The notes under the pieces were generated by a model, which was given only the letters and a program-made list of their open reading frames with translations, ran no database searches and was not told the DNA's origin. Shown one piece after another: positions 2,642-19,819 of a stretch of 27,402 bases of DNA. Made by a program: the position numbers and the translations under genes. The stretch comes from a virus. Where the stretch lies: IMG/VR virus record IMGVR_UViG_3300027736_000207, positions 1 to 27,402 of that record; one strand, given 5' to 3'. Positions within the stretch are counted from its first letter, which is position 1. The number at the start of each line of letters is the position of its first letter.

Positions 2642-5600
2642 TTATCGGATTCCCACTGATTTTTTCGATTTTGCGTTCGCGATATCCTCGATGCGGTTCA
2701 GCTGTCGCTTGGTCGCTGTCGCTGGGTCCAGCTGAGAGATACGAGTCTTAAGCTCGACCGCTCGCACCTCCTGCATCCTGGTCAACTCCTCTGGTGTAGC
2801 CTGCCGTTCCACGCGTCCAAACTGATGGAACCGATTGTTCTGTTGTGTCGCTGGAGTCCATCCGGTTTTAGCCAGCACCTGGTAAGCGCGGTCAGTTTCA
2901 TTGCCGCCCACGATTGCGCTGCCACCCGTCAGGATTGACATAATACGTTCCGTGGCGCGCGGTGTACCCACTGGGTCTCCGAGGAAGTTACGGTCAACCT
3001 TTCCGCTCCACGGTGTTGGCGCCAGGAGGTTTATGAACGTCTGGTCCTTCGGGTTGAACTGCGCGCCGGACATAGCGGTGAGTTCACGCACCAGGGGTCC
3101 AAACGGAATCAACGGGCTCACGGCGCCGGCCACGATCTTGCCTAGATCAGGGGCTTGCCGGTAGGTTCCTGACCCGATTAGTCCAGATGCGGTGCGGCCT
3201 TGCGCTACTGCGGAGTAGGCTCCGTAAGCTAACGCTCCAGCCATGTCTTTGGCGGTAAGCTCTCGGGGCTCAAACTTCAGGCCCTTCTTTTTAGCAGCGG
3301 CCTCAGCCTTCTGATTCAACCGATTACGTCGCGCCACCTGGTACTGAAGTTCTCCAACCCCGGCGAGCGCCGGCCGTGCAATCTGGATTGGCCCCGTGTT
3401 GAGCGACACGCGCAGTATCTTTCCGCCTGGAAGGTCAAGTTCCATGGTGTTCGGCTTGTGGCCATCACGTTCCCATAGGTCAGCTTCCTCTTTGTCGTCT
3501 GGCCATTTAGTGAACACTCGCAGGGCGCCAGAGAGAACCAAGGCAGCCAAAGCGCCGGAAAGCCCGAGTCCAGTCGCGGCCTCAATCTTACGCTGAGTCC
3601 GATCTTCAGGGGTTTTATACCAAGCGGAACCCTCAAACGAACTCGGGACGAACCCCCCGCCAGCGAATGTCAGGGCGCGATTGATGCCGATCGCGATCGC
3701 GTTAGAGAACCGCCCGACAGGGTTTGGAATACCAGCTTTTGCTAGCCAGTCATTTGCACCCTTCATTCCTTTTCCAATCTGCCCTCCAAGGCCCCCAGTC
3801 TCTTCAACGTTCCATCCGATTGTGGATCGAAGATCCTGGGTAACCTGCTTCAGGTTATCGACGTCGAGTCCAGCAGCTTTAATCCGCTGGTACTGCCTGG
3901 CGCGTACGACATTCCATGCAGCAGCACGACGCTCTTTCGGAGTGATGTTGGGATCGTCTCCGACAAGAGCTTGCGCCATCGCATACTCAGCGGTCGCATC
4001 TCCAAGTGCAGCACGGGCAGCTTTGCGTGCCTGCTTCGGGTCCATTCCTTGCAGTCGGAACTGAGACTCCGCCCATGCCCCAATCTCTTGCTGCTCAGCA
4101 AGCGTGCCCTGGAGCGCGTCCAGCGCAGAGGCGTACCGATACGACAGCTGCACGATCCCAACCATCCGAAGCATGGTTGCACGAGCGTAGTCGCCGCTCT
4201 TTGCGTACTCGGTCGCCTTGGCGTTAATTCGATCGAGAGCCCTGATTCCACTCTGGATACCCATGATGGTATCGCGTTCGGCGCGTCCTTTGGCAGCTTC
4301 CAGCGCAGAGGTGAGCGCCATATTTAACGACTGGAACCGGGCCTTATAGGAATCCTCCAGGGCGGTCCCAACGTCTTTCCACAGACGCGTCTGTCGATTT
4401 GCAGACTTGTCAGCATTGTACCTTCCGACCGCCGCTGAGACGGCGCGCGTCGGAGTGTAGTAGAACATCTGCGTGAACGTATCTATCAGCTGCTTTGTGG
4501 CGAAGCTGGGCTTGAACAGCAGCTCAGCGGAAACAACCTCGTTGATCGCCCTGGCTCGGTTCTCTTTGTTTCCACGGATCGGAATAGTCATCGACGCCCA
4601 ACGCCTCTGGATCTCACGCATGATGTCAGCGCGTTTCCCGAGGTTCATTGCGGCCTTGATATCGTCGGTTAATCCTTTCTTCTTTTCCTCCTCGTTGGCT
4701 GTGCTGAGTTCCTGCTCCAGGCGCGCTAGGTCTCGAAGACGGCTAACCTCGGCGTCAGTTGGGATTTTCCATCCAGCCTTCTTAGCAATGCTTTGAAGGA
4801 GCGCCGCCGAGTCCATGCCACCGGCATTCACGAATTGCTCGATTTTCTTCCAAAGCGGAGTGCCCGGACCAAAATCTCGAATTTCGTTCGGGGTCAGCTT
4901 CTCAACCGCCTGGCTTAGCGCGGTGATTCGCGCTCGCTCAAACTTCACCTGGAACGCTTTGGCCAGCGCAATTCCAGTCTTGTCAGCTAACGCTTGGTCG
5001 ATCGCGAGTTCACTCAACAGAGCCTGCGAGAACGCCTTAGCGAGTTGTGCTTGTGTGCCTTGCGGAGTCTCCAGCACGCGCTTCACGAGGTCGCTCATCT
5101 TAGGAACCAGCCGTTGCAACGCGGGATTCTTAGCCACACTCTCGGCGATGCGCTGGTCCAGTAGTCCGGCACGGATACCACCGGCCAGTCGATTGACAGC
5201 CTTGGCGCGATCCGCAGCGACTTGAGCGTCGGTCTTCGGCTGAGCTAGATCGAACTTCACGTCGTTGGCGCCTACAATCTGGCTCACGACCGAGTTCTCG
5301 GATTCCATCATCCGCTCGGTGAGGTGAGTCCACACAGCACCCTGCATCCATTCGTCGGTCAGCTTCTCGGCCGCCGTGATCTGATTCAGCTTGCCGGTCA
5401 GGAACGCGAGCTTCTCGGCTCGGGTCTGAGTTGCCATCTTGAGAAACTCATCACCATTCAAGTAGGTCTTAGCGACCCGCTTTAATAGATCACGAGTCGC
5501 TTGTGAGCGGTAACGCGGATCCTCGGTGATGCCGGCGTTGATTAGCCTCTGGAGACGATCACTGGCCGTGGTGGGTCCAGACTTAGTCTTCACGTCCAAG

Positions 5601-8600
5601 AAACTGTTCAGCACTCGCTGACGTGCCAGTTGGACCTGAGAACCCACGTTCGCAGTAACCATCTGCATCACGCGAGCCTTGGCCTCAGGGGACGCTCCGG
5701 CGAGGTCCATGATCTGAGCCACTGCATTCAGCTGCTCTCCGATCACGCGACTCATTTCAGCGTTCGGCCGCTGAACCAAACGATTGAGGTCGATCTTCGG
5801 TGGCGCGGGAGGTGCGACTTTTTTCTCGCCAAACTGGACTCCTTTAAAGCGTCCACGGATTACATCCTGGGCGAGCTTCAGGGTGGTCGGCGAGTAGTTG
5901 AGGAACCCATCTCGAATCGTGCGCCAGTGAGCGTACTCGGGAAGGTTTAATCCATCCTCGATCGACTGTGGGGTCGGCTCATCACCGGCCGCTTTAGCTT
6001 CTCGATACTGCTGCATGAGAGCCATATCGCCAGTCGCTTCAGCCATCATGGCCGCCCATCCAGCGTTGAACTCAGCATCCTTAACTGCGTCCTCGGTGGC
6101 TTTCTGAACCTTCGCCTGTGTTGCGGGAGTGGTCATTAGTGCGAGGCGAGCATCAGGCGTGAGCTTCTGTGAAGGAACCTTCGGGGCTTCTGTTACGCCT
6201 AAAGCCAGCGCGTTCTCAATGATCTGCGCGATGGCTTCATCTTCCAGGGCCTGCCGCTTGGCCGCCTTGTTATTCTTCGCAGCTGGCGGTTTCACCTTGA
6301 GGCGTCCTTGGACAGCGCGGTAAACCCGACCTCCGGTGTCGGCTAGAGCCATGACTCCAAGCTGCTCAACTACCGGCTGTAGCTGAGGGTTCTCACCGAC
6401 GATTTTATCGATCTCAGTTTGTGTGAACTGGCCGCGATAGGCTGACAGAATCCTGTCTAGGATTTTCGCAACTTCCCTACCATTAAAGGTATCGGAATAG
6501 ACTGACGTAAGGTAGCCTGTAACGTTTCTCGCAAACGCCACGAAGTCTTTCACTGAAGCGTTCAGGCTTGCCAGCTGGCGACCTGCCTCGGAAGCCTCAG
6601 ACTGACCAATACGGTAAAGCTCATCTCGTGTTTCCTGGCTAAATCCATCGGCGACTGAAAACTGGTTTCGCAGTGAATTGATCAGCGCGAACATCGTGTC
6701 ACCGCGACCGTCCGCCTTGGCTTTGATGAACTTCTCCTTGGCGATTTTGATAAGCCTTCGGCCGGCGTCTTCTTGATCCAACCCTTCGACTGGAGCAAAC
6801 AGGTTTTCAGTGATGGGGCGGAACTTAACCCCAGCTTCGTTGAAAGCATCAGTTGCCAACTGAACACCAGCGTCGAGAACTTCAGGAGTAAGCGCCCGGC
6901 GACCAGCCACTGTGTCCTCAAACCCTCCGCGCTTCGTAGTAACCGGCTCCTCTGCTGTGCTGTAAATCATGCCGAAGTCGCTGCTCGGAGCTTCCTTCGC
7001 TATATTTTCCACATCCGCCAGGATCTCAGCGGTCGGTTCTACGGCAGATCCTTGAGCTTGATCCCACGCGTGTTGTAGCGCCGGACTCAGCTTAAGATTT
7101 ATGCTCGCGGCCCATTCTGATGCGGTCTGGATACCCTTACGGATCGCGACAGCAGCAAGGTCTGCAAATGCCTTGAGAACCCGGCGAGCGGATTCCTCAG
7201 GCGTCGGGCCTTCAGTGATGCCTGCCTTAGGGGTGATAGACTCGACGAACTGAGCGACCGCGTCCGATGCTTCGGCGACGGCGTCGCCTAGATCTATCTG
7301 CGTCTGCGCCTTCTCCTGGGCAGCCTTTGCTTCGGCAGCAGCACGAGCGGCAGCTTGGGCCTTTTGCTTACGAGCTTCGAGGTCTACGCCTTTTTCTCCA
7401 ACCAGGGCGAAGTCTTCGACCTGTGTACTGGAGATTAGGTCTCCCTGGTTCTGTCCAGCTGCGAGACGTGGCTTACGTTCGGTAGGAGCCGGACTTTCGG
7501 TAGGAAATTCAAACGCATCTCCTGGTCCACGATCAGGAAGTTCATCCACGAAGATCGTGTCGTTCTCAGTTAGTTGCTGAACTCCGAATTTATCCCCATC
7601 ACGAATCGTGTAGTCTCCATCTGGAGTGACAGCTGTAACCTCGAATTGTTCACCTTGAATCTTGAACTTGTCTCCAATCGCAAGGCTTCCGACAGACACT
7701 TCGACCGGGCCGTTAGGCTCGCCAGCATTTTGCATCCCCTCGGTTTGAGAATCTACGAAGGCTTCATCCTGCGCCTGCAAGAACGCGTCGAGGCCCATCG
7801 CCTCTTCGGCGCCGGCAGCGGCGGCCTTAGCCTCTTGCTTCATTGCGACCACGTCCCCCTTGCGGCCCCGTGCAGCCTTGTCAACTTCAGCCCAGAACTC
7901 GGACACACTCATGTCTCCGTACTTGCCGGGGTTTTCTGTGGCAAGCTCTGCGAGCAACTGGTCTGGCTGATTTCGGCTCGCTGTACCGCGTGACCTTCCT
8001 CCAAAGATTTTATTGAAGTACGGATCGAGCCTTGGGGCATCGTCGTAGAGGTCCTTGATTTTCTCTAGGCGCTTTTCCTTCTTGGCCTGAGACTTAGACA
8101 TGACGCCACCGAGGCTGATGATGTCATCTAGGATGTCTCCTTTGGACGCCCACTCACGGGCTTTCTTAGATTTAGGAGCCTTAGCAGCGGCAGGCTTAAC
8201 CGGAGTCTGAGTTACCGTAACCGCACCTGGGGTTAGTACGACGGTGCGTGTTGGAGAGGTGGGTGCAGCGACGGGAGGGGTGGGCGCCGGCGTCACCGGC
8301 CCTGGCTTATTGAAATCCAGCGTCACACCCTTACCAGCGTTCCGGAACACGCGAACTGGAGCGCCGCTGGAAATCTTCCGAAGAGCATTGTTGAGTGACT
8401 TTTCGGACTGCGCTTCAATCGTGACGTCCTCATCAACCTTGATGGTGTACTTCGGTTGGCTTCCACGTTCTTCAGGTGTACCAACGATCGACTTAGCGAA
8501 GGCAACGATTTCGCCAGTGTCACGATCAATCATCCCATCCACGGTGCGGTTCTGGAACGGGAACGTGCGTGAGGTGGTGGGAGTGACAGGAGTAGGCGTG

Positions 8601-10396
8601 ACGACAGCAGGGATGGTCGGAGTTTCTGATGGGGTAACCGGAACCTCGGCCGGCGCCGCAGGCGCCACACCAGTCGCAATTTTGGTTCGATATAATGTTA
8701 GCGCTTGTTTCTCTCCAAACCCAAACTCGGCGGAATTATCCCCGGCTTCTGCCTCCGCTTCTCTTCTTAAAAGATTAACGTAATCTGAGTATTCGTCGGG
8801 GTTGAGAGCCGGTTCTTTTGAGAACGGCACAGCCTCTTGCGTCACAACCCCAGGCTTAGTCCACCCCGTGGTCTCATCAAACTCAAAGCCCGCCTGCTCC
8901 AGCTGGCCAACACGGCCGGCGAGTTCCTCGAAGCGGTCCAGTTGCTCCTCCTCAAGCATATCGGACGCAGACGCTCCATCAAGGAAGTCAACGATCCCGT
9001 TATACTCGTTGGTCTCCTCGATCGTCAGCGGCTGGACTTCCGTTTGGATTTCGGCCCCTGCTCCTTCGGCAGGCCGCCCTCCTTGATCCACTTCTGACAG
9101 TCCCACTTGGACTTCGGGTTGCGGTTTTTCTGCGCGAAGCAGGCTTTCACCTGCGCCTTGTTCTTGAACGGCATTTTCGGTGGTGGTTGGGGTTTCTGTG
9201 ATCGGAATGACGGGCGCCACTTCTTCTCCAGCAGCTTCCATCTCCAGCTGCATTTCCGGAATAGTAAAGCCTTCCTCTGGTGGTGTAATGCGGATTGGCC
9301 CAGAAGGCGCGCCGCCGGAGTTGATGCCAGCAAGGGTGGCGGTGGCGTTGGGTAGTGGGTTTGATGGATCTCCGCCAATCGCAGCGCGTCCAGCGGCTTG
9401 ACGATTGATAATTTCTTGGATTTGAGCCCCTGAAAGCGGCGCATTAAGTTCCTGTGCGAGACGTTGGTTTGCAGCGACGCGCCCAGCTTTGCCTCCCACC
9501 AATCCCATTAAACCGCCAACCCCAAAACCAGCTGCCCCAGACTCGAACACTCCCTCGGTGAGCTTCTGGTCAGGGTTGTAGGTCTTTTTGGCGACCGCAT
9601 TTCCAAGCCAATTTTCTGTGATCTCCTGAGTACCTTCTTCAACAGCCGTGCGCGCGGCTTCCTTGAAGATGCTTTTATTAACCTGCCCAGCAACAGCGCG
9701 TCCAAATGCTGGCACTGCTCCAATACCAAACTCGGTGAGCGCCCCTATCGGTGCCGTGTACAGCGCCGATTGGTATTGCTTAACTGGTTTTTCAGCTTGG
9801 AGTCGATTTACCTCCGCTGCGTCCCCTTCGGCTAAAGCTTGAGCGATTCTGGCATCGTAAACCTTGCCTGTCTTTTGCGCTGCATCTTCACCTGCGCTGA
9901 ATCCGTAGGCCAACTGACCAACACCTGGAACCACTGAAACCGGAAGCGATCCAATCCCGCTTGCTATCTGAGTCAGGTAATCGTCCTGGCGCAACGGGTT
10001 AACCGGAAACGCTTCTTCAGCTCCTTCTTGAAGCGCCTTGCCCATCTGGAATGTCGGGCTAGCCTCAAGCTCCGCCGCACGCGCTTGGTAAACCTCCGGC
10101 GGTACTTCTTTGACACGTTTCTCCCAGGCTGCCCGCCTACGTTCGTAAGCCGCCATTCCAGCGGGACTCTCAACCTGTGCCGCTGACATTATCGGAGGCG
10201 GCTCTTCAAGGCCTACGCGAGTTAGGCCCATCATACCCCCACCGATCATGCGGCCACCTTGCTGCATGAGGGCGTTGCCGGCGGCTGGAAGCGCACCTTG
10301 TCGAAGTGTCTGCGAGAACTCCAGCAGTTGGTTTTCTCCGATCCGGTCATCAACTTCAACCAGACCAACTCCTTCGATATCAACGATGCGTGGCAT
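2642..10396 (-). CDS. Giant multi-domain phage protein (2,584 aa), probable ejected internal virion protein
   Basis: It fills 28% of the window, and AAGGT seven bases before the ATG gives one of the few good ribosome-binding sites here. N-terminus: short beta-like start, then Gly-rich hydrophobic segments at about 143-165, 211-235 and 286-304, around an EEGTQEITENWLG helix. Middle: Pro/Thr-rich linkers (about 585-632 and 690-742); a domain with DILDDIISLGG and YDDAPRLDPYF (about 755-855); an SH3-like strand set with GDKFKIQGEQFEV (about 893-943); and an Ala/Lys/Gln coil (about 1005-1035). Long helical stretches follow. C-terminus: a hydrophobic helix near 2270-2297 and ILRVSLNTGPIQI, resembling by eye the LPD38-type domain of phage polyvalent proteins. 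Position after two internal-virion-type genes suggests ejection with the DNA. No transglycosylase or polymerase motif was seen. Role is inferred. Confidence 0.8.
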   Translation of the reverse strand: MPRIVDIEGVGLVEVDDRIGENQLLEFSQTLRQGALPAAGNALMQQGGRMIGGGMMGLTRVGLEEPPPIMSAAQVESPAGMAAYERRRAAWEKRVKEVPPEVYQARAAELEASPTFQMGKALQEGAEEAFPVNPLRQDDYLTQIASGIGSLPVSVVPGVGQLAYGFSAGEDAAQKTGKVYDARIAQALAEGDAAEVNRLQAEKPVKQYQSALYTAPIGALTEFGIGAVPAFGRAVAGQVNKSIFKEAARTAVEEGTQEITENWLGNAVAKKTYNPDQKLTEGVFESGAAGFGVGGLMGLVGGKAGRVAANQRLAQELNAPLSGAQIQEIINRQAAGRAAIGGDPSNPLPNATATLAGINSGGAPSGPIRITPPEEGFTIPEMQLEMEAAGEEVAPVIPITETPTTTENAVQEQGAGESLLRAEKPQPEVQVGLSEVDQGGRPAEGAGAEIQTEVQPLTIEETNEYNGIVDFLDGASASDMLEEEQLDRFEELAGRVGQLEQAGFEFDETTGWTKPGVVTQEAVPFSKEPALNPDEYSDYVNLLRREAEAEAGDNSAEFGFGEKQALTLYRTKIATGVAPAAPAEVPVTPSETPTIPAVVTPTPVTPTTSRTFPFQNRTVDGMIDRDTGEIVAFAKSIVGTPEERGSQPKYTIKVDEDVTIEAQSEKSLNNALRKISSGAPVRVFRNAGKGVTLDFNKPGPVTPAPTPPVAAPTSPTRTVVLTPGAVTVTQTPVKPAAAKAPKSKKAREWASKGDILDDIISLGGVMSKSQAKKEKRLEKIKDLYDDAPRLDPYFNKIFGGRSRGTASRNQPDQLLAELATENPGKYGDMSVSEFWAEVDKAARGRKGDVVAMKQEAKAAAAGAEEAMGLDAFLQAQDEAFVDSQTEGMQNAGEPNGPVEVSVGSLAIGDKFKIQGEQFEVTAVTPDGDYTIRDGDKFGVQQLTENDTIFVDELPDRGPGDAFEFPTESPAPTERKPRLAAGQNQGDLISSTQVEDFALVGEKGVDLEARKQKAQAAARAAAEAKAAQEKAQTQIDLGDAVAEASDAVAQFVESITPKAGITEGPTPEESARRVLKAFADLAAVAIRKGIQTASEWAASINLKLSPALQHAWDQAQGSAVEPTAEILADVENIAKEAPSSDFGMIYSTAEEPVTTKRGGFEDTVAGRRALTPEVLDAGVQLATDAFNEAGVKFRPITENLFAPVEGLDQEDAGRRLIKIAKEKFIKAKADGRGDTMFALINSLRNQFSVADGFSQETRDELYRIGQSEASEAGRQLASLNASVKDFVAFARNVTGYLTSVYSDTFNGREVAKILDRILSAYRGQFTQTEIDKIVGENPQLQPVVEQLGVMALADTGGRVYRAVQGRLKVKPPAAKNNKAAKRQALEDEAIAQIIENALALGVTEAPKVPSQKLTPDARLALMTTPATQAKVQKATEDAVKDAEFNAGWAAMMAEATGDMALMQQYREAKAAGDEPTPQSIEDGLNLPEYAHWRTIRDGFLNYSPTTLKLAQDVIRGRFKGVQFGEKKVAPPAPPKIDLNRLVQRPNAEMSRVIGEQLNAVAQIMDLAGASPEAKARVMQMVTANVGSQVQLARQRVLNSFLDVKTKSGPTTASDRLQRLINAGITEDPRYRSQATRDLLKRVAKTYLNGDEFLKMATQTRAEKLAFLTGKLNQITAAEKLTDEWMQGAVWTHLTERMMESENSVVSQIVGANDVKFDLAQPKTDAQVAADRAKAVNRLAGGIRAGLLDQRIAESVAKNPALQRLVPKMSDLVKRVLETPQGTQAQLAKAFSQALLSELAIDQALADKTGIALAKAFQVKFERARITALSQAVEKLTPNEIRDFGPGTPLWKKIEQFVNAGGMDSAALLQSIAKKAGWKIPTDAEVSRLRDLARLEQELSTANEEEKKKGLTDDIKAAMNLGKRADIMREIQRRWASMTIPIRGNKENRARAINEVVSAELLFKPSFATKQLIDTFTQMFYYTPTRAVSAAVGRYNADKSANRQTRLWKDVGTALEDSYKARFQSLNMALTSALEAAKGRAERDTIMGIQSGIRALDRINAKATEYAKSGDYARATMLRMVGIVQLSYRYASALDALQGTLAEQQEIGAWAESQFRLQGMDPKQARKAARAALGDATAEYAMAQALVGDDPNITPKERRAAAWNVVRARQYQRIKAAGLDVDNLKQVTQDLRSTIGWNVEETGGLGGQIGKGMKGANDWLAKAGIPNPVGRFSNAIAIGINRALTFAGGGFVPSSFEGSAWYKTPEDRTQRKIEAATGLGLSGALAALVLSGALRVFTKWPDDKEEADLWERDGHKPNTMELDLPGGKILRVSLNTGPIQIARPALAGVGELQYQVARRNRLNQKAEAAAKKKGLKFEPRELTAKDMAGALAYGAYSAVAQGRTASGLIGSGTYRQAPDLGKIVAGAVSPLIPFGPLVRELTAMSGAQFNPKDQTFINLLAPTPWSGKVDRNFLGDPVGTPRATERIMSILTGGSAIVGGNETDRAYQVLAKTGWTPATQQNNRFHQFGRVERQATPEELTRMQEVRAVELKTRISQLDPATATKRQLNRIEDIANAKSKKSVGIR

Positions 10397-10404
10397 GGGT
10401 TACC

Positions 10405-11322
10405 TTAGTACTTTAACGGCGTGTAGACTGCACCAAACGGTGCATTTTGGTCATAAGAAAGTCGCCCTACCGGAGCCGCATTCGTGGAGGCAGGTGCATC
10501 CGATGGCTTCGACAGCTGCTTAGCCCTGTAGGCATCCCGCTCTTCGGCGCTCATTTTGATCGTTTCGACGATTTTTCCTGCATCGTCCAGAATGTTTACT
10601 GTGTAAGGACGATCAACGTTTACCTTTTCAACCTTAGGCGTCTTCATTAGGACTGTTCTGCCTCCTCCAATGTCCACATATTGATATCCCTTTGCAGGTT
10701 TTTCAGGAGCAGTCATTGCAGGCGGTTGAACTAGCGTTTCAGGAATGCCTTGTGTTTGCCTAATCTCATTCAACACATTGAGTTCAGTGTCTTGAGAAGG
10801 CCCGCTGATTGCTGATTCAACTCCTGCCGGTAACGCTTTCGGCTTCATCGCAATCATTCCTTGCGATGCCAAGATGCGGTTATACGCGGTTTCGTTCTCC
10901 ATTTTTTTCACTATCCCGAGCGCCAACCCCTTCTGAAACGCTTTGGTGCCTCGGATTTTTTTGTCAACATCACCTATTGGTGCGCCAAGGGATTCGGCTA
11001 ATCCAGCGGTCTCGTTAAACGCATCTTGCCCCTCCGCTTCCTTGAGTTTTCTTGAGGATTCAACCAAGTTCACTGAACCGTCCGGGTTCAGTGTTAGGTG
11101 CTCAGCAAACTTCGACCCAAGCACATCGGCCCGATTTTGTGCCGCCAACGTCGCCGCCTCCCGCCGCTGGTCAACGAGGTCCTGGTAATACTGCCCTCGC
11201 ACCCGCGTATCTTCAGCACGCTGCGCTGCTGCTTCCTCCCTATACTGCCGCTGATTCGCCAGCTGCACGCCTTGGAGGTACGATTGCCCGATGTTTTCGA
11301 GTCCTGAGAAGGGGTTTGCCAT
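10405..11322 (-). CDS. Putative internal virion protein (305 aa)
   Basis: A mostly helical, charged protein. Residues about 20-75 are rich in Q, R, E and A with coiled-coil character (REEAAAQRAEDTRVRGQYYQ), followed by mixed helical segments. A Pro/Lys-rich stretch follows around 180-235, and a short C-terminal part ends FGAVYTPLKY. No enzyme motif is visible. It lies 8 bases from the giant gene and 6 bases after the 252-residue gene, in the order short membrane-type, coiled-coil, giant. That order parallels the gp14-gp15-gp16 ejection proteins of T7-like phages, although I see no sequence similarity to them. The gene is well supported; the role rests on position and composition. Confidence 0.65.
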   Translation of the reverse strand: MANPFSGLENIGQSYLQGVQLANQRQYREEAAAQRAEDTRVRGQYYQDLVDQRREAATLAAQNRADVLGSKFAEHLTLNPDGSVNLVESSRKLKEAEGQDAFNETAGLAESLGAPIGDVDKKIRGTKAFQKGLALGIVKKMENETAYNRILASQGMIAMKPKALPAGVESAISGPSQDTELNVLNEIRQTQGIPETLVQPPAMTAPEKPAKGYQYVDIGGGRTVLMKTPKVEKVNVDRPYTVNILDDAGKIVETIKMSAEERDAYRAKQLSKPSDAPASTNAAPVGRLSYDQNAPFGAVYTPLKY

Positions 11323-11328
11323 AAAATT

Positions 11329-12087
11329 TTAGCTTAGTCCTTGGCGACCGTAACCTGTCGGCATTCCGGTTGAATAATTCCAATCACCACCTACGCCAGC
11401 ATTAGCGCGAGTTTGCGCCCCCAGCTGCGCGAATCCAAGGTTGGTCAATCCTGATCCAAGCGATCCGAATGCCTGGCCAGCAACTCCAGTTGCGCTCGGC
11501 ATACCAGCAACTCCAAGGAGAGCCTGCTGCTGGGCGCCGCGTTCACCTCCGCGAAGTGAAGCGATCTGTTGCGGGGTAAACTCGTAGTTTGCTAGCGGTG
11601 CCATTGGTGTGGTTCCGATGATGTTGGCAAACTGTTGAGCACCAAGGTTTGTCATATCCAGGCTGGTCCTGCCAATGTCTCGCGCCACGAGATTTCTTCC
11701 AGCTGCGCTTCCCGCGTAACCACCTTTTACAGCCTGACCGGCGGCTTTGCGCTGGACCTGAGCTAGCACGTCAGGTGGCAGCTCGCCTTGCAGCAATGCC
11801 ATTGCGTTCTGGGTGCGCTGAGCTTGGCCTTCCTGATAACCAGGAATCTGAATACCGAGCGACTCCAGCAGTTGGGCGCGACTAACCGCATTTCGCTCAG
11901 CCTCCATTTCACGAGCACGCGGCGCGTTCAGGGAGGATTCTCCCATCACTTGGCCAATGTCGATTCCTGGAAGGTTAGCGGCGTCACGGGCCTGCCGGCG
12001 TGCGGCGCTAGCAGACGATGCTGACATGGCACCTCCGGCCAATGAGCCGATGGCTCCAACTCCTATTGCTGTTCCTACCCAAGACAT
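11329..12087 (-). CDS. Putative internal virion / DNA-ejection protein with N-terminal hydrophobic helix
   Basis: A 252-residue protein. Residues about 5-26 (GTAIGVGAIGSLAGGAMSAS) form a Gly/Ala-rich hydrophobic helix that could insert in a membrane. It is followed by helical, Gln/Ala/Arg-rich sequence and a Gly-rich C-terminus (GVAGQAFGSLGSGLTNLG). Small Gly-rich proteins of this design sit next to the tail genes of podoviruses and act as ejected channel proteins, as gp14 does in T7. No sequence motif proves it. Its ATG overlaps the end of the cupin-like gene by 13 bases. Function is inferred from composition and position. Confidence 0.65.
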   Translation of the reverse strand: MSWVGTAIGVGAIGSLAGGAMSASSASAARRQARDAANLPGIDIGQVMGESSLNAPRAREMEAERNAVSRAQLLESLGIQIPGYQEGQAQRTQNAMALLQGELPPDVLAQVQRKAAGQAVKGGYAGSAAGRNLVARDIGRTSLDMTNLGAQQFANIIGTTPMAPLANYEFTPQQIASLRGGERGAQQQALLGVAGMPSATGVAGQAFGSLGSGLTNLGFAQLGAQTRANAGVGGDWNYSTGMPTGYGRQGLS

Positions 12088-12539
12088 AATAAGTATTTGT
12101 TAGACCTCACGTAAGTAAGGTCGTTGCGTATCTCTTCGTGATTTTTCTTGTTCAGAGGATTAGGATGGACAGTTACCCAAACCGTATCCTCTTGGATCAA
12201 AATTGCCCTTCGTGTCTGCGGTAGGGTAATTCCGTACATCGGTGCCGTGTAGGTCACCACACCCTCGGTTTCACTGATCACCGTCAGCTTTCCTCGAAGC
12301 AAGAAAAACGGGTGATCGAACTTGTGAATCAGGCTGGTAATAATCGACCCGGCTGGAGCGAAAATTTCCCGCACGTACAACCCTTCTGGGTAAGTATGCG
12401 TCAGCGGGCATTCGATCTGTGGCTTGTCGGATACAAACGCCTCCCAGCGATCCAGACGATCGTCGAGCAGAACACCGTCGTCGGTTAGAAAATCCAACCA
12501 CGTAATAGGCTGCACGGCTACTGGAAGCTCTTCGGTCAT
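12075..12539 (-). CDS. Cupin-like phage protein
   Basis: A 154-residue protein. Residues about 53-127 match a cupin-like beta-barrel seen in many phage proteins: GLYVREIFAPAGSIITSLIH, then KFDHPFFLLRGKLTVISETE, then PQTRRAILIQEDTVWVTVHP. H92 and H96 fall roughly where cupin motif 1 places metal ligands, and the VHPN near 127 resembles motif 2. Phage relatives are of unknown function; binding of a small ligand or a structural role are both possible. It lies between the adaptor and the internal-virion-type genes, so it may be a virion component. Its ATG overlaps the adaptor stop by one base (TGATG). Confidence 0.7.
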   Translation of the reverse strand: MTEELPVAVQPITWLDFLTDDGVLLDDRLDRWEAFVSDKPQIECPLTHTYPEGLYVREIFAPAGSIITSLIHKFDHPFFLLRGKLTVISETEGVVTYTAPMYGITLPQTRRAILIQEDTVWVTVHPNPLNKKNHEEIRNDLTYVRSNKYLLCLG

Positions 12540-13627
12540 CAGATGAATCCACCAAACCTATATTGAATCTTAGCAGACCCGAAAGGCTGCACGTTGATTA
12601 CGCTGCGCTCGTTGGGGCTGTACGCCTCAAGCTCATTCCGAAGCGACCGAAGTGCTAGCTGGATCTCGCGCTCAGCCTCGGTGTACTGATTCCGGTCTTC
12701 CTTTTGGATCGCCTTCATCATGTGCTTGATCGCCTGGAGGTTCCCGATAAACAGCCAGTCTGAATCAACGATCGCCGGTATGAAGTCCAGGCGAACGATC
12801 GCTTCCACGACCGTGTTGGTGCAAGTCTCGTCTGCTGGCACGCAGCCGTCTCCGTTGTCGATACAGCAATTGTCCTGGGTGGTGCTGCACGAATTAGCCC
12901 CACCGCAGACCTCGGGCATCCCGACAAGGTAGGTGCGTCGGTACTCGGGGTTCTGCTCGCTTGGGCCCCAGACTGCGACCTGGGTTAATAGACCAGTTGT
13001 GTCGTTTTCCGCAATAATCGTCAGGCTTCCTTGAGTCAGCGGCTTCTGGGCGCCAGTCAGACCCGGTTGCTTGAACCGATTACTTGTCCGGACGTAGGCC
13101 GTGATAGAGGGGTTTGGAAGAGTAACGTACTCACCCCAGACGTATTCTCCGGTGACCGAGTCCAACGTACGGATTGGGATCCCATTGGGATCAAGCCCCT
13201 GGAGAAGCACGCGTTTACCGGCATCAGCTGAGAGCTGCGGCGTCACCCTGATGTAGCAGTTGCCAACCGAGTCCCGAAATTGCGTCACCATGCCGCGATC
13301 CAGCAACTGGTCTTGCTCGCATCCTTCACGGCCGCATCCGGTGCGCGGTGCGCGGGTGTCCGTCTGGAACTCGTACCACTGATTCTGGATGGGGATGTTG
13401 TAGCCGCAGAGGTTCATCGCCTCGATCGTCTTGACCTCACGGGGCCAGGTGATGCAGCCGGCGGTCACGCAGACGCGCAGCTTCTTGTACGTGCCCCACC
13501 ACTTGCCCATGTCTGCCAAGCGAGCCTGAGCCTCGTTGAGCAGCTGGACGAAACGCTCGTCGCAGGTGGCCAGACCGACTGCCTGCGGGATCGTGGAGTT
13601 CTTGGCTTGGGCGAGGGTTTTTCTCAT
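12539..13627 (-). CDS. Putative head-tail adaptor (gp11-like) with cysteine-rich insert
   Basis: A 362-residue protein. The N-terminal helix ERFVQLLNEAQARLADMGKW, followed by a strand ending AGCITWPREV (58-65), resembles the start of gp11-type adaptors. The C-terminal helices WLFIGNLQAIKHMMKAIQ and TEAEREIQLALRSLRNELEA (291-335) fit the second half of that fold. Between them lies a long beta-rich insertion. Residues 241-269 hold six cysteines (241, 247, 254, 255, 262, 269) in Asn/Gly/Thr-rich sequence, and C98 and C103 lie earlier; these could bind metal or form disulfides. It lies among the other neck and tail genes. The adaptor call rests on fold pattern and context, not on a clear family match. 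The start overlaps the fibre stop by 4 bases. Confidence 0.6.
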   Translation of the reverse strand: MRKTLAQAKNSTIPQAVGLATCDERFVQLLNEAQARLADMGKWWGTYKKLRVCVTAGCITWPREVKTIEAMNLCGYNIPIQNQWYEFQTDTRAPRTGCGREGCEQDQLLDRGMVTQFRDSVGNCYIRVTPQLSADAGKRVLLQGLDPNGIPIRTLDSVTGEYVWGEYVTLPNPSITAYVRTSNRFKQPGLTGAQKPLTQGSLTIIAENDTTGLLTQVAVWGPSEQNPEYRRTYLVGMPEVCGGANSCSTTQDNCCIDNGDGCVPADETCTNTVVEAIVRLDFIPAIVDSDWLFIGNLQAIKHMMKAIQKEDRNQYTEAEREIQLALRSLRNELEAYSPNERSVINVQPFGSAKIQYRFGGFI

Positions 13628-14607
13628 GGGACGTAAGCCGGGTTTAGGGCCGTGGCGTAGACTTTGATTCGGTAATTAGTTGCGTTGCTGGCCGCTAGAA
13701 GTGGAGGAATCATGTACGAAAAAATGAGACCACCAATTCCTGCGTTAAACGCAGTTGCCTGCACATTGATTTGAGATGGATCGCACAGATATCTAAATGC
13801 TGGGAGATCCGTTGTTCTATCGCAAAGAAAATGAAGACAATCTACTTCTTGACCTTCATACCAAGTAAATACCGTGTTCGGGGCAGTAGCGGCATCTGTG
13901 TATGTATCGAATGTTCCTGGCAATCCAGTTGCGCGAATTAAAACCGCTCTAACCATAAACGGCATCACACCGAAACCATGATTGAACGGCATAAAAGTGC
14001 CGTCCTGAACGATTGGTATTGGTGCCGACGCATACGTCAAAAACTGCTTCAAACTCAGCCGCGTAAAATCCCGTTTCTGCGTTAGCAGCTGGAAATTTAC
14101 GCCATCGTAGAGCACTGAAACCACCTGCCCAGCCAGGATGTCGTTTGCCGCTAACGCCACCGTGCCGTCCTTCGTGATCGTCTTGGCGCCCTTGGCATCG
14201 ACATTTAACGTACAGCCAGCAGCGTTGGTGTGGTTCGCAATGAAAGTGTAAATCTGGCCGGTGCGGTAAGCTGACGCCGCGCTTGGGTAAGGTGGCGAGT
14301 TTATGACCGAGTAAGCTCCAGCAGCGCCGGTAGAGGTGCCAGCAAACACCACTTCACTGGACAGTCGAACAAATGCAGAATCTCCGGCAGCAGCCGAAAA
14401 CTTCAACACCTCAACTGGGCGATTGCTGATGTCGGTGCGAAGCCAGTAGAGCCCAGTGTTGCCTGGCACAACCTGAGATGTGGACCACTCCGCCCCGGTG
14501 TTGATGTTGGCAATCAACGCGGCGGCGTAAGCGTCAAGGCGATCCTGTTCAGAGGCGTAGCAGGTCGGTGGCGGCAGTGTGCCGGCTGAAATATCAACGG
14601 TTGGCAT
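13624..14607 (-). CDS. Tail fibre / receptor-binding protein
   Basis: A 327-residue protein. Residues about 111-176 hold a small beta domain common in phage tail fibres: YTFIANHTNAAGCTLNVDAK, then TKDGTVALAANDILAGQVVS, then YDGVNFQLL. The N-terminal 110 residues probably attach it to the tail. The C-terminal 150 residues are aromatic and beta-rich, with HGFGVMPFMVRAVL near 210, and may be the receptor-binding tip; I do not recognise that part. It lies two bases after the tailspike and overlaps the adaptor by ATGA. Its cell-surface target is unknown. Confidence 0.75.
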   Translation of the reverse strand: MPTVDISAGTLPPPTCYASEQDRLDAYAAALIANINTGAEWSTSQVVPGNTGLYWLRTDISNRPVEVLKFSAAAGDSAFVRLSSEVVFAGTSTGAAGAYSVINSPPYPSAASAYRTGQIYTFIANHTNAAGCTLNVDAKGAKTITKDGTVALAANDILAGQVVSVLYDGVNFQLLTQKRDFTRLSLKQFLTYASAPIPIVQDGTFMPFNHGFGVMPFMVRAVLIRATGLPGTFDTYTDAATAPNTVFTWYEGQEVDCLHFLCDRTTDLPAFRYLCDPSQINVQATAFNAGIGGLIFSYMIPPLLAASNATNYRIKVYATALNPAYVP

Positions 14608-14609
14608 GG

Positions 14610-17600
14610 CTAGATGCGGTAAATGTAGTCGTTTGGCTTACACGGGCCTGGGTCGCATTCAAGCGCCAAACAAGCCTCCGGACAATCGAAATAGAAGAAT
14701 TGGTTCAGCGGCGCAACGCATCCCCTTGATCTTCCGCTGATGAAAAAGGTCCCGAACCTACCGCCGTTGTTGATCGCCAGCGGCTCTCCACTCAAGCGAC
14801 GTACGGTGTTACATCCAATCTGGATATTATCGACGTACCTCAGGAAGTTGCCGGTTGATGATGTAAACGCGACGTTGGGACCAGGGCTCGCGCAGGTGAA
14901 TGTCGTCAGCGTAGGAACTCCGGTCACAATTACCTCGTCGTTGAACGAAACATTGCTGAGCCCCTCAACGGTTGCGTGGTATCCAGCAATCAGCTGATGC
15001 GCCTTGTTCGTCGTGTACGTGGCCACCCCTCCGGTGCGCTGGAATCCAATGGGTTGGATTTCCCAAGGAAAGTCTATAGGACTATCGATTCCCAGAAGCC
15101 CCCCCGTGGTGCTTTCGTTTACGCCTGGGTTTAAGACAGTGAAAGTCGTGGTAGTCGGAGTGGCTATAACCGTGAATTTTCCAATGAAACTTCCGATGAC
15201 AGTTTTTAGAACCGTCACCTTAAAACCGGGTTGAAGTTCGTGCGCTGAAGCTGTTGTGAAAGTCGCTACCCCGGCAAGGCGCGTCGCTGTCGTAATCGGA
15301 ATCTGATAATCCGTTGGATAGTACCACTTAGATTTATCTACATCGTGATTGTTAATTAGGAATACAGCATTGATCGGAGGATAGGCTGGCTGGTAATACC
15401 ATGAATCAGGACCAGACAGCAGAACATCGTTGTTTTCAATAACCATGTTCTTATGCACCGCAGTAAATGTAGAATACAAATCTGGGTTAGCATATCCCAA
15501 AGGCAAATAAGTTGCGTAGTAATCGTTGGTTTGCAGTGCAATAAACGCCCCAACATTCAACGCTTCATTATGATGCAGGTGAGTACCTTTATGAAAAAAA
15601 GAATCAACGTAGAAACAGGTTCCAATGTAACCGTTGAAATTGTTGTACCTGACTTCCGCGTCAACCGTTTCCCTTACCGTCACTGCGTGTAATGGGCTTT
15701 GAGCATCCGGTCTATTCGGTCCAGATATAAATTGGTTTTCTTCTACGACACAATCCGATGCAAAAATGCGTCGGCTGCGAAGCATCATCACGTAGCCGTC
15801 GAGGTAGAGGCCGGGGAGTTCGTTTGGTCCAGCGGATGCGGCTGTAAATCGGTATGAATCAGGGAGGGTGAGAACGGTGCGTGATCCGTTGAACGTCGCG
15901 TCTGAAAAACCGCTTACCACTACCACATCGCCCACCCTCAACGTATGCTTCATCACACAGGTGTAGGTCGCCACTCCAGCTGACCTAGACACCACATTGA
16001 TCGGATTCAGCAGCGATGAAAACCCTCCAATCACAACCTCCGTAACAGCCTCTGCGCTTCCAGGGTAAAGTGTCCCTTGAATCGAGTTGCTTCCTTCGTA
16101 GCCAAACTTATTCCTAAGGACTTTCGCTCCTGGGGTTCCATCATCTACCGTCATTGGTAGGAATGTTTTGAGCACAAACGATTCGGCGTTTAGCGTACCA
16201 TCACCGAAATCGTAGAACTCGCAATCTTGAATCAGCGCGTTCTCTCCGGTGTGGTTAATGCCAGCAATGGTGTAGACCGAGTTTACCCCAGCGTTGACTT
16301 GCGGCGTAAGAGCGACATCTGGAGCAGACCATGCGCGGCCGTTTTGGAGCAGGTCAACGGTGCCTACGTCTGGAATTGGTCCAATATTTGTTCCAGGGTT
16401 AGCGCAGGTAAACTGAATTGGGCTTGGGTATCCATTGACCACAAACGTTCCGTTAAACGATGCGTCGGAAAGACCTTGAATCAGGACGTTTTCACCGCCC
16501 ACGAAACCGTGCGGAGTTCCGGTATCGTAAATTGCATTTCCAGCTAACCTTTCAAATCCGTTGATTTGTACAGTCGTTGTAGGTCCAACATTAACGCACA
16601 GCACCTCGGTAATTGATGGAAACGATACAACTACAAATGTTCCATTCAGCGTAGCGTTTGAAAATCCTGTGACAGTAAATGAATTTCCAATAGTGAAAGG
16701 AAAATACCAATTAGGATGGCGAGTGTAAATAGCTTGATTAACCGCGTTTCGTTTTGCTTGAATTAATACAACGCCAACGTCTCGTTGAAACGAAAATTGA
16801 GTGATATTCTGAACCTGCCCGTAACCTACAAATGTAGCGTCTGAACTTGGGCCAGTGGTTACAACATTACTAATGTATTGTTGATATATTCCTACATTTG
16901 CATATAACGGAGGAATTGGAGGAACGTATACAGGAGGAGCTTGTGATGATAATTGAGTTGTTATGCCGTAAGGACTATAAAACGTAATAGGAATTGTAGA
17001 ATTGTAAGTATTTATTCCATTAGTTCTCTGAACCGATGATATTTTAATATCAGCAACTGAGTTATTTCTATAATTTCCATCAAAAGTAATACCTTGTATT
17101 AGTGTGTTTTTGCAATTAGTTGCATCTACCGGGTTTCCAATTATGCTTCCAGAAGCGCCTACAACTCCAGATCCGGTAACTGTTCCAATAGTCTTAATCA
17201 TCTGGGCGTTAAACCCATATAAATCGAATACTTTTGTCGATGTATGGTCAGCAAACTTAAGGATTGTTTTACCCGCGCCCTGACCCGTGATCTCCATGTT
17301 GTTGATCGCGGCCCCGTATCCAAGCAGAATTGAAGATGTAAATCCTCCACCGATCAGGTTTATCCATCCATCTTCGGTGACCAATCCGGAGTTTGGCCCG
17401 GGAACCGTTGCAGTAAACGTAGTCGAGTTTGGTGTTGAATCGACACGGAATCCGTAATAGGTGGAACCCACTCCGTTGAACGTAGGGTCCGTAAAACCGT
17501 ACAGGGTGATCTTTTCTCCAACAACCAGTCCGTGCGGTGTTGCTGTTGTAAATGTAGCTACGTTAAAAAATCGAAAACGACTTGTAATCTTCACCCCCGG

Positions 17601-17735
17601 GCTCGATCCAATCAAAAACGTTCCAACCGGAAAATGGCACTTGCCAGTGAGATTCAAGCATTCGCTGATCGCCCACGCGCTGTTTCTCAGTCCGCAAGGA
17701 TCGGCGCCGTAATCGACTGGATTGTATGATGGCAT
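14610..17735 (-). CDS. Tailspike with pectate-lyase-type beta-helix and repeated beta modules
   Basis: A 1,041-residue protein from the ATG at 17735; a TTG at 17762 would add nine residues but overlaps the nozzle gene. The N-terminus PSYNPVDYGADPCGLRNSAW, followed by HFPVGTFLIG, is the usual opening of pectate-lyase-like tailspikes ('DYGA-x-GD', then 'FPAGTY'). Such spikes bind and often cut host surface polysaccharide. Single-line beta-helix turns such as GENALIQDCEFYDFG and RIFASDCVVEENQFISG follow. Six copies of a module of about 70 residues interrupt the helix. The C-terminus has five cysteines in 27 residues (14640-14720). Bases 16681-17100 are much more AT-rich than the rest. I cannot identify catalytic residues, so enzyme activity is open. 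Confidence 0.8.
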   Translation of the reverse strand: MPSYNPVDYGADPCGLRNSAWAISECLNLTGKCHFPVGTFLIGSSPGVKITSRFRFFNVATFTTATPHGLVVGEKITLYGFTDPTFNGVGSTYYGFRVDSTPNSTTFTATVPGPNSGLVTEDGWINLIGGGFTSSILLGYGAAINNMEITGQGAGKTILKFADHTSTKVFDLYGFNAQMIKTIGTVTGSGVVGASGSIIGNPVDATNCKNTLIQGITFDGNYRNNSVADIKISSVQRTNGINTYNSTIPITFYSPYGITTQLSSQAPPVYVPPIPPLYANVGIYQQYISNVVTTGPSSDATFVGYGQVQNITQFSFQRDVGVVLIQAKRNAVNQAIYTRHPNWYFPFTIGNSFTVTGFSNATLNGTFVVVSFPSITEVLCVNVGPTTTVQINGFERLAGNAIYDTGTPHGFVGGENVLIQGLSDASFNGTFVVNGYPSPIQFTCANPGTNIGPIPDVGTVDLLQNGRAWSAPDVALTPQVNAGVNSVYTIAGINHTGENALIQDCEFYDFGDGTLNAESFVLKTFLPMTVDDGTPGAKVLRNKFGYEGSNSIQGTLYPGSAEAVTEVVIGGFSSLLNPINVVSRSAGVATYTCVMKHTLRVGDVVVVSGFSDATFNGSRTVLTLPDSYRFTAASAGPNELPGLYLDGYVMMLRSRRIFASDCVVEENQFISGPNRPDAQSPLHAVTVRETVDAEVRYNNFNGYIGTCFYVDSFFHKGTHLHHNEALNVGAFIALQTNDYYATYLPLGYANPDLYSTFTAVHKNMVIENNDVLLSGPDSWYYQPAYPPINAVFLINNHDVDKSKWYYPTDYQIPITTATRLAGVATFTTASAHELQPGFKVTVLKTVIGSFIGKFTVIATPTTTTFTVLNPGVNESTTGGLLGIDSPIDFPWEIQPIGFQRTGGVATYTTNKAHQLIAGYHATVEGLSNVSFNDEVIVTGVPTLTTFTCASPGPNVAFTSSTGNFLRYVDNIQIGCNTVRRLSGEPLAINNGGRFGTFFISGRSRGCVAPLNQFFYFDCPEACLALECDPGPCKPNDYIYRI
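14832..15047 (-). repeat. Tailspike beta module, copy 6
   Basis: Residues about 897-968. Key parts are GGVATYTTNKAHQLIAGYHA, GLSNVSFNDEVIVTG and TTFTCASPGPN. Confidence 0.72.
15087..15287 (-). repeat. Tailspike beta module, copy 5
   Basis: Residues about 817-883. Key parts are AGVATFTTASAHELQPGFKV, IGKFTVIATP and TTFTVLNPGVN. Confidence 0.7.
15789..15995 (-). repeat. Tailspike beta module, copy 4
   Basis: Residues about 581-649. Key parts are AGVATYTCVMKHTLRVGDVV, SGFSDATFNGSRTV and FTAASAGPN. Confidence 0.72.
16347..16556 (-). repeat. Tailspike beta module, copy 3
   Basis: Residues about 394-463, directly after copy 2. Key parts are TPHGFVGGENVLIQGLSDAS, F-N-G-T-F-V-V and QFTCANPGTN. Confidence 0.7.
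16557..16793 (-). repeat. Tailspike beta module, copy 2 (degenerate)
   Basis: Residues about 315-393. The opening GVATYTT and the His are poorly conserved, but the second half GNSFTVTGFSNATLNGTFVV is clearly the module. Its first half lies in the AT-rich island. Confidence 0.55.
16681..17100. other. AT-rich island inside the tailspike gene
   Basis: By hand count 147 of 420 bases are G or C (35%), and 16861-17100 falls to 31%. A sample line in the terminase gene is 57%. The frame stays open and the product is low-complexity, Thr/Ser/Asn/Pro-rich (SSQAPPVYVPPIPPLYANV). This looks like a separately acquired spike segment. Confidence 0.8.
17355..17573 (-). repeat. Tailspike beta module, copy 1
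   Basis: Residues about 55-127 of the spike. It has the pattern shared by all copies: VATFTTATPHGLVVGE, a hydrophobic strand, then G-F-T-D-P-T-F-N-G, and TTFTATVPGPN at the end. By eye it resembles modules that databases label E1-FCCH-like in phage nozzle and spike proteins. Confidence 0.7.
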
Positions 17736-17736
17736 A

Positions 17737-19776
17737 CTATTCGGAGAGAAGGGGGCACGCAACGCGGCTGAGATCGCCGTAAATATCCTCTTGAAGGCGT
17801 TGAGCGACCATAGCCACCCGCTTGAGTCGGAATCGGCCGGTGTTCACGTACCTCAGCTGGAACTCGTATCCATCGCGGGTAAATCCCCCGGTCTGCACGT
17901 CGCACTTGTCCGGAGGCTGTGGTAGGGCAATGCGCGATCTTGCAGGCGGCTGGTAGTATTTGACCTCCTGGCAGTTGATCACCGCAGGAGGGCAGGAAAT
18001 CTCGCCTGGTTCGCAGTTGCGGTATTTCGCGCAGTCCTTGATCTCGGCCCATGGATGCCAGCACTCACCCTCGTTGGCCTTGAAGTAGACCTTAGATTCG
18101 ATGTTACCCATCACCTGGTCATACCATTGCTCGGCGCTGACAAGGCGTTTCTTGTTAGATGGTTCAGCGAACGTGATCGACCGAGTCTCAATGGTCCAAT
18201 CGATCGGAACATCATCGTATCCATCGAAGTCAAACTGACCGTTCTTTGTGACCTCAAAGAGTCCGATGTCCCCTTGATTTAACCCAAACATGAAACAGCG
18301 ATCCTGTTTTTGAATTCGGATGGTAAGCATCTGGAGTACATCCACTCCGGTCCATACACCCTCCCATGCCGGCGGAAGTTTCCGACCCATTCCAGAGACA
18401 AGATCGAAGTCCAGCACTACGACTCCTCGGTGAATGGTTCCCCTTCCGTTGACTTTCTGAGGCTGAATTGTCATCAGCATCCGATTGTCGAAGTTTACAG
18501 AGCTAGCAGCTTGGAGATAAAACTCCGTGTCGTAAGCTATTGCACGAGTAACCTGCCGGCTGATCGGTGTGTTTCCAAACTCAGTAAAGTCGCGTCTGGC
18601 GTAGATCAATGAGCGAATGCCGTCCTGAGCGCGGAAAAAGAGATCGCCGTTCACTGGCACGATGGATTCGTGGTTAAACGATCCGAAGTTCAGGAGCGCG
18701 AATCGCTGGATTGGATAACTGAGATCCTTCCAAACATCCCGGTCCACAGGCGCGTTAAACGCGTAAGTGGCGGTCGGGGTAAACACCAGCAGGTCGCCGT
18801 CACCAAGGGACGTGTCCAGGTTGGCCGCGAAAGCCAACCCTGTGATCGGGCCGTTTGAGACCGCAAAGGCGCCTCCTTCATTGAGGAATGTATTTTCTGT
18901 GAACCGAATTACACTGTCTCGGCCGTAAGCCGGATCGCCGTAGACCAAGTCTCCACCGTAGTATTCCGATCCATTTGCAACCCAGAGGCGTCCTTTTCCG
19001 TAAGCCATCGGACCGCCAACCGGAACCTCATCGCTTAATGCTCGGCGCAAAGAAGTTCCGTCGTAGAGATACGGAGCATTCTGCTGATCTTGAATAATCA
19101 GCCAGTTTTCCGCCTGCTGAAAGTAAACGTGAGGTGTGCTAGGGTTATTGGTTGAAAGCAGGTATCCAAAAAAGGCTGGCCCTAAAAATGGTCCAGCATC
19201 AGTTCCTGGTGAGTATGTGGTGAAGCTGTCAAAAGTCGGGATGTTTTGGACAATGAAGTCTCCAAAGAATCCAGCTGGCGACGTGGCTCCAGGCACCTCC
19301 GGCAATCTTACAACCATGCCAGGAAAAAGCCCATGGGCTCCGCCGGTCATGTAAGTTGCAACGTTTGCAACGCGACCACGGGTAAAGACCACAAACTGCG
19401 AAGCGATCGCAGAGAGGTCGGTGACCTTGAATTGGTTGTTAATGTCGATCTTGAAAACCTTGCCGCTAATCGACGCAAAAATGTAAGGGTCTCCGTTATC
19501 GGAAATGTATGTTCCGCATCCTTGAAACTGGCCTTCCTTAAAGGCCGATTGCACAGCAGCGTTGTAGTAACCCCCGTTGTAGAGAACGGTTGGATCGTCA
19601 AACGTCAGCAGTTTGGTCCAAATCCCAGGCCGCGCTTTCGGAAATCCTCCGCGCACCGTCGTGTTCACCGCCCATGCTAGCTGGTTCGGTTGAATGAGTG
19701 AGGGCGAAAAACCGCTGTCCACCCCACCTTCAGCGGTGAGGAGGCCGTCTACTATGCGATTTTTTTCTGCGACCAT
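17737..19776 (-). CDS. Tail nozzle protein (gp12 / tail tubular protein B-like)
   Basis: A 679-residue protein from the ATG at 19776; a TTG at 19818 is possible but would add 14 Cys/Ser-rich residues. The opening GLLTAEGGVDSGFSPSLIQP, followed by NTTVRGGFPKARPG, is typical of podovirus nozzle proteins, which close the short tail below the adaptor. The middle has beta-propeller-like blades such as LLVFTPTATYAFNAPVDRD and GDLFFRAQDGIRSL. Residues about 133-199 are an inserted beta module like those in the neighbouring spike. A segment coded by 17901-18063 has six cysteines in about 55 residues. It is the first gene of the virion operon, divergent from the terminase. Confidence 0.78.
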   Translation of the reverse strand: MVAEKNRIVDGLLTAEGGVDSGFSPSLIQPNQLAWAVNTTVRGGFPKARPGIWTKLLTFDDPTVLYNGGYYNAAVQSAFKEGQFQGCGTYISDNGDPYIFASISGKVFKIDINNQFKVTDLSAIASQFVVFTRGRVANVATYMTGGAHGLFPGMVVRLPEVPGATSPAGFFGDFIVQNIPTFDSFTTYSPGTDAGPFLGPAFFGYLLSTNNPSTPHVYFQQAENWLIIQDQQNAPYLYDGTSLRRALSDEVPVGGPMAYGKGRLWVANGSEYYGGDLVYGDPAYGRDSVIRFTENTFLNEGGAFAVSNGPITGLAFAANLDTSLGDGDLLVFTPTATYAFNAPVDRDVWKDLSYPIQRFALLNFGSFNHESIVPVNGDLFFRAQDGIRSLIYARRDFTEFGNTPISRQVTRAIAYDTEFYLQAASSVNFDNRMLMTIQPQKVNGRGTIHRGVVVLDFDLVSGMGRKLPPAWEGVWTGVDVLQMLTIRIQKQDRCFMFGLNQGDIGLFEVTKNGQFDFDGYDDVPIDWTIETRSITFAEPSNKKRLVSAEQWYDQVMGNIESKVYFKANEGECWHPWAEIKDCAKYRNCEPGEISCPPAVINCQEVKYYQPPARSRIALPQPPDKCDVQTGGFTRDGYEFQLRYVNTGRFRLKRVAMVAQRLQEDIYGDLSRVACPLLSE
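19180..19380 (-). repeat. Beta module in the nozzle (seventh copy in the window)
   Basis: The segment VANVATYMTGGAHGLFPGMV, followed by GFFGDFIVQNIPTFDSFTTY and SPGTDAG, follows the same pattern as the tailspike modules: ATYxT, H-G-L, G-x-V, then FxTYSPG at the end. It interrupts the nozzle fold after its first blade. Confidence 0.65.
19707..19737 (-). terminator. Terminator-like hairpin in the 5' part of the nozzle gene
   Basis: On the - strand, ACCGCTG and CAGCGGT form a perfect 7-bp stem with a 13-base loop, followed by a run of five T, the first of them in the stem. It lies about 40 bases into the coding sequence. It could attenuate the virion operon, or be a coincidence of coding sequence. 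Confidence 0.3.
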
Positions 19777-19819
19777 GACGCTTGAACCGATTGAAGGGCC
19801 ACAGCAGGATTCCCGCAAG
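19777..19819. other. Divergent intergenic region between nozzle and terminase
   Basis: These 43 bases separate the two divergent operons. On the - strand, TTGCGG and TTCAAT are 17 bases apart, a weak sigma70-like match. I see no convincing + strand promoter here, so the one for the terminase may lie inside the nozzle 5' coding region. The terminase ribosome-binding site (AGGA, 19806-19809) is in this gap. Confidence 0.5.

Follow-up and report, generated by a model that had tools for sequence, protein, structure and literature searches.

A probably inherited AT-rich tract in a predicted beta-helix tailspike of a phage group that trades whole spikes and barrel modules

Introduction

The beta-helix tailspikes of phages such as HK620, LKA1 (gp49), Dettilon and CBA120 (TSP2) are encoded among tail-like genes and recognise polysaccharides of the host. 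It is well known that tail spikes belong to the most mosaic phage proteins, as stated in PMC10684548 (2023), and that beta-helices can carry barrel domains: PMC7939477 describes a GH110 beta-helix with two small beta-barrel domains around the helix. The barrel of the K1F endosialidase is described as binding sialic acid and influencing how hosts are told apart (PMC12632334), and non-random GC3 patterns along phage genomes are reported to be common (PMC2266997).

In this study we analyse a spike gene in a stretch of 27,402 nt, IMG/VR record IMGVR_UViG_3300027736_000207, called the window here; all positions refer to it and residue numbers (aa) refer to its spike. The gene lies among tail-like genes, as do those of the tailspikes above, and by analogy with them a role in host polysaccharide recognition is expected. 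In contrast to these tailspikes, the window's spike has no credible sequence match to a solved structure, its core is predicted to be broken by at least six barrel modules, and its sequence starts almost directly at the helix. It has more barrels than the GH110 enzymes, and unlike the endosialidase barrel its barrels would sit on a beta-helix and in many copies. The words ‘nested’ and ‘GC content’ are absent from the main text of PMC10684548, whereas here we find a module nested in a copy of itself. The initial annotation of the window had read an AT-rich island in the spike gene (16681-17100) as a segment acquired from another source; taken as a whole, that interpretation is partly supported.

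Materials and methods

Ninety-six loci were collected (one of the lists of relatives being the best 80 of 96 candidates), five of them without a spike: three end too soon and two hold partial upstream genes. From the remaining 91 spike ORFs two cut ones were removed and identical proteins, often from one contig fetched twice, were collapsed, which left 56 spikes and that of the window, 57 distinct spikes altogether. Loci from the search for a donor are outside these counts. Structure alignments covered 43 of the 57 spikes, and gene identities to the window were computed for 35 chosen loci. ‘Window-type’ denotes eight distinct spikes, that of the window and those of seven relatives.

Results

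The spike gene (14610-17735, minus strand) encodes 1041 residues, with its start most likely at the ATG at 17735 and its stop at 14610 (coding 14613-17735, 1041 codons). Both the N-terminus (MPSYNPVDYGADPCG) and the C-terminus (GPCKPNDYIYRI) are nearly constant across relatives, and the 57 distinct spikes range from 963 to 1220 residues. Only one uncut spike ORF among the loci collected, that of locus L075 (9286-12174), does not end in YRI; it ends in GPCKPDDYRRPH, possibly through a frameshift or an assembly error.

A structure model derived from 43 spikes (mean pLDDT 64.7, moderate confidence) matched right-handed beta-helices in VIA-align comparisons, namely PfbA (Z 26.3) and the HK620 tailspike (Z 23.9, rmsd 3.0 over 287 residues), with which the predicted model shares the core fold. 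The top Foldseek matches were the GH110 alpha-1,3-galactosidases PdGH110B and AgaBb (E about 1e-8). Whole-model Foldseek TM-scores were low, 0.10-0.19 on the query for these enzymes, with which the fold was compared. The window also holds terminase, RecT and exonuclease families, and the spike stands beside variable tail-like genes; its direct neighbours have no family match themselves. The fold match of the predicted model and this place among tail-like genes bear out the annotation as a tailspike. The model describes a right-handed parallel beta-helix core interrupted by six beta-barrel modules of ~60 residues. By analogy, the helix would bind or cut a host surface polysaccharide, and the barrels might be accessory sugar-binding or spacing elements that add contacts or reach. 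Pfam and NCBIfam contain no family for the window's spike, and tblastn of the whole spike and of one other gene against named phages gave no match. A sequence-profile search of the PDB returned one match (E 0.65) that we judged not credible.

Several genes of the window vary strongly among phages with near-identical terminase (13624-14607, 12075-12539, 11329-12087, 10405-11322 and the gene of 2584 aa at 2642-10396); the gene at 12539-13627, between variable genes, is 83-100% identical in 35 loci. At 819-2596 an exonuclease VIII-like (DUF3799) gene adjoins a RecT-like gene. When genome contigs were searched with the spike alignment, none of the 21 candidate stretches was confirmed. A search of genome contigs with the terminase gave one, a 7.2-kb contig (L174) from the MAG Candidatus Aquidulcis frankliniae (Chloroflexota), whose terminase is 82% identical over 297 residues; it either hints weakly at the host or reflects an error of binning, and is too weak to name a host.

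Six repeats of ~60 residues each, recognised by a module profile, interrupt the spike helix, all encoded on the minus strand: M1 (aa 54-115, 17391-17576), M2 (aa 327-387, 16575-16757; 62 bits, with agreement of the local model and a structure match), M3 (aa 394-450, 16386-16556), M4 (aa 582-638, 15822-15992; simple, i.e. un-nested, in the window), M5 (aa 818-873, 15117-15284) and M6 (aa 898-955, 14871-15044). The gene upstream of the spike (17737-19818) holds a further copy (19198-19374, minus strand; 30 bits), which is found in relatives too. Copy number in the spike varies: the M2-M3 array has one full module in 21, two in 27 and three in nine of the 57 spikes, and in 25 of the 57 a whole module is nested inside M4. 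In pairs of loci such as L037/L038, L025/L022, L026/L028 and L061/L063 the nested module is present in one member and absent from the other; the same pairs are near-identical over most of the stretch adjoining the M4 site, and in L037/L038 and L025/L022 M4 is the main point of difference. The difference within each pair is either a gain or a loss. A tblastn search with one module (M6 of L068) against named phages, at E up to 1, gave no match.

In the models the modules are small beta-barrels that resemble the endosialidase barrel and the E1 FCCH domain, below the cut-offs of both families. The phage endosialidase beta-barrel family (PF12195; K1F, phi92) matches 8 of 43 spikes weakly (best 1.3e-4), and the best of eight rescanned relatives scores 20.3 bits against a cut-off of 35. 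E1_FCCH (PF16190) matches 7 of 43 members (best 2.9e-4); two of eight rescanned members matched, with 10.8 and 12.3 bits against a cut-off of 29.5. Neither family has a hit in the window's spike. The first six Foldseek matches of the local model are endosialidases (E 0.05-0.19), and residues 257-331 of phi92 align with M2 at Z 6.6, no better than the barrels of F1-ATPase or UBA6.

Window-wide G+C is 0.549 (54.9%). The values of 35% and 31% noted by hand for the island agree with those measured, 0.350 in 16681-17100 and 0.308 in 16861-17100, and a single minus-strand ORF is open across it, as had been claimed. If its amino acids were encoded with the codon usage of 14 further genes of the window, 16681-17100 would be expected to have a G+C of 0.503 (observed 0.350, z -11.3) and a GC3 of 0.626 (observed 0.194, z -10.7); in none of 5000 simulations did G+C fall as low as observed. 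The lowest 80-codon GC3 in the spike is 0.125 and the minimum of 1000 synonymous shuffles is 0.338. Simulations and shuffles thus place the AT-richness far beyond chance. Since 50.3% G+C is expected from amino acids and codon usage, roughly one quarter of the shortfall (~4.6 of 20 points) is due to the residues, and an account by amino acids alone, which the initial annotation had named as something that would refute it, fails. The trough is wider than first stated: it spans aa 171-455 (16371-17225, minus strand), encloses 16681-17100, has a GC of 0.394 and a GC3 of 0.27, and is lowest at aa 211-290. A second, milder dip lies in the spike at 15300-15700 (40.9% G+C against 49.4% expected).

One conceivable cause would be a hidden element in the tract, either an internal promoter or an overlapping gene. 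Two promoter-like sites do lie on the coding strand, but shuffled sequences contain 2.5 +/- 1.2, and none of the eight spikes has a second frame that stays open through the tract; the longest such frame, of 105 codons, occurs only in L005 and L006. We rejected both forms of this explanation on the shuffle counts and closed frames, and consider it extremely improbable.

The segment 16681-17100 encodes one turn of the helix, a degenerate seventh module (M1.5) that a Pro-rich insert divides in two, and the first part of M2. M1.5 corresponds to aa 235-316 (16788-17033, minus strand) and the insert to aa ~254-286 (16878-16976, minus strand), the length of the latter being variable among relatives. 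The two halves of M1.5 align in order with the module profile (hhalign P 2e-5 and 2e-3), against P 0.025-0.25 for four non-module control blocks. In 33 of the 57 spikes, the window's not among them, the module profile recognises part of M1.5. A local model of low to moderate confidence (mean pLDDT 63.2) predicts the strand order E-E-insert-E-short helix-E-E, as in M2. The segment had been described as of low complexity, which holds for ~35 Pro-rich residues (aa ~254-286), the remainder being ordinary beta-strand sequence. Thr, Ser, Asn and Pro are indeed enriched (together 34.5%, against 22.6% in 15 genes), but so are Ile, Gln and Tyr.

If 16681-17100 had recently been exchanged for foreign sequence in the course of a host-range switch, as its GC3 far below expectation and the exchange to which the spike is subject might suggest, its history should differ from that of its flanks. 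No such difference was seen. GC3 is low in all eight window-type spikes, about 0.1-0.4 across aa 211-326, and a homologous, colinear tract is present in all 57 distinct spikes, the alignment being unbroken. At aa 211-290, dS is 0.53-0.70 in six of seven comparisons and 1.03 for L007, comparable with the remainder of the spike or a little higher. In each of the five trees of core segments, that of aa 171-326 among them, the window-type spikes group as a single clade, although the tree program warned of odd base composition for the tract, aa 644-813 and upstream-gene trees and of long branches meeting for that of aa 456-578. From the shared low GC3, the unbroken homology, the agreeing trees and the ordinary dS we see no sign that the tract arrived separately since these spikes diverged, and a recent swap is therefore very unlikely. 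The comparison with relatives had been proposed in advance as a test: all window-type spikes carry the same segment with the same composition, which, within this type, is the outcome named beforehand as refuting an acquired segment. Several other types have GC-rich counterparts. In these, GC3 at aa 211-250 is 0.7-0.95, and that of the tract in L010-L017 is mostly 0.65-0.85; identity at aa 211-250 between the window type and spikes outside it is 60-80%, similar to or above that of most of the flanking helix core.

On this evidence we rejected the reading that only this segment is replaced in relatives. The visible breakpoints lie elsewhere: where the spike begins, close to codon 800, and at the modules M1, M2-M3 and M5-M6. 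Terminases are 97-100% identical to that of the window in 14 loci and 89-92% in 21. In 7 of the 14 loci of the window's terminase group the terminase is 99-100% identical and the spike only 52-67%. Conversely, L005 and L006, of the second terminase group, carry window-type spikes (86% identical). In the tree of the upstream gene, which includes 52 of the 57 rows (five were not picked up by length), they fall outside the window-type clade and group with the second lineage, and a tree constrained to unite them with the window-type spikes is worse by 93 log units (AU p 0.026). The similarity of L005 switches at the spike start, and its window-type similarity ends near codon 800. Single modules differ as well: L004 and L007 have another M1 allele (AU p 0.040) and L007 another M3 (AU p 0.054), all three AU values being near 0.05. 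For M5 and M6, a single clade was not rejected by the tests; lower sequence identity suggests that both may have been swapped in L005. The annotation's view of a gene shaped by exchange is thus confirmed, as whole spikes and single modules differ between relatives, and the units traded in this phage group are the whole spike and the small barrel modules set into it.

When the 57 spikes were grouped at 80% identity into 15 types and one representative of each was tested, each of the five types that belong to the window's terminase lineage (the L024 type being assigned to it through its members L026 and L028) had a significant GC3 minimum with its centre inside aa 171-455, as did one of ten others. 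The troughs in all five types indicate that the AT-rich composition is old. Some of the change seems recent, since the nearest relatives are less AT-rich in the tract than the window: of the third-position differences from L004 in the tract, 27 make the window the more AT-rich and 12 the reverse.

Discussion

How the tract became AT-rich can be explained in two ways. It might be possible, with a chance slightly short of even, that the tract or the central spike entered an ancestor of the lineage from an AT-richer phage and kept its composition. The troughs at the same position in five of five types of the terminase lineage and one of ten others would fit such an import, as would the fact that L005 and L006 retain the AT-rich tract in a locus of 57% G+C. 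However, an AT-rich donor was looked for and none was found, the edges of the tract change gradually in G+C, and the 60-80% identity of aa 211-250 to GC-richer spikes means that an imported donor would be a homologue. A less probable explanation needs no import: AT-ending codons could be locally favoured or tolerated, for example for slow translation at the folding boundary of helix and module array. This would agree with low G+C at the same position in types whose proteins have very different sequences there, and with the window seeming more AT-rich than its nearest relatives; against it stand GC-rich versions in at least 8 of 15 types.

We consider it quite probable that the tract was inherited and not recently swapped, and that exchange acts on the whole spike and on modules. 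The claim that the segment came from another source is not upheld, as it is common to all eight window-type spikes and homologous in all 57, and its tree agrees with those of its flanks on the window type. Most likely the low GC goes back to the ancestors of the spikes in this lineage and not to a recent segment swap. On this view a low-GC stretch has been passed down within a modular tailspike that would bind a receptor, and codes there for one turn of the beta-helix together with the first part of a tandem barrel array (M1.5, M2, M3). Homologous recombination would be anchored in the ends of the gene, which hardly vary, and in the conserved helix that separates the modules. RecT-like annealases probably promote exchange between diverged phages, and the phage's own RecT-like annealase and exonuclease (819-2596) may perhaps drive recombination of the spike.

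As a tentative and rather doubtful hypothesis, this spike family could be a platform for a mobile, self-nesting barrel module, gained and lost at fixed loops, one of which lies in another copy of the module; the AT-rich tract might then hold an old copy, opened in a similar way by the Pro-rich insert and now fixed. We found no account of such nested modules in the open-licence literature, searched by title for tailspike recombination or GC, nested or inserted domains and FCCH. As far as searched, the novelty lies in the self-nested modules of a spike family that neither Pfam nor NCBIfam names.

In conclusion, the AT-rich island itself is unremarkable once it is placed in the setting of a modular spike. 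An odd base composition within a spike need not mark a swapped piece, as the breakpoints of exchange seen here fall in other places. Pairs of closely similar phages, of which one has the nested module and the other lacks it, form a natural set for studying what a single barrel contributes to host binding.
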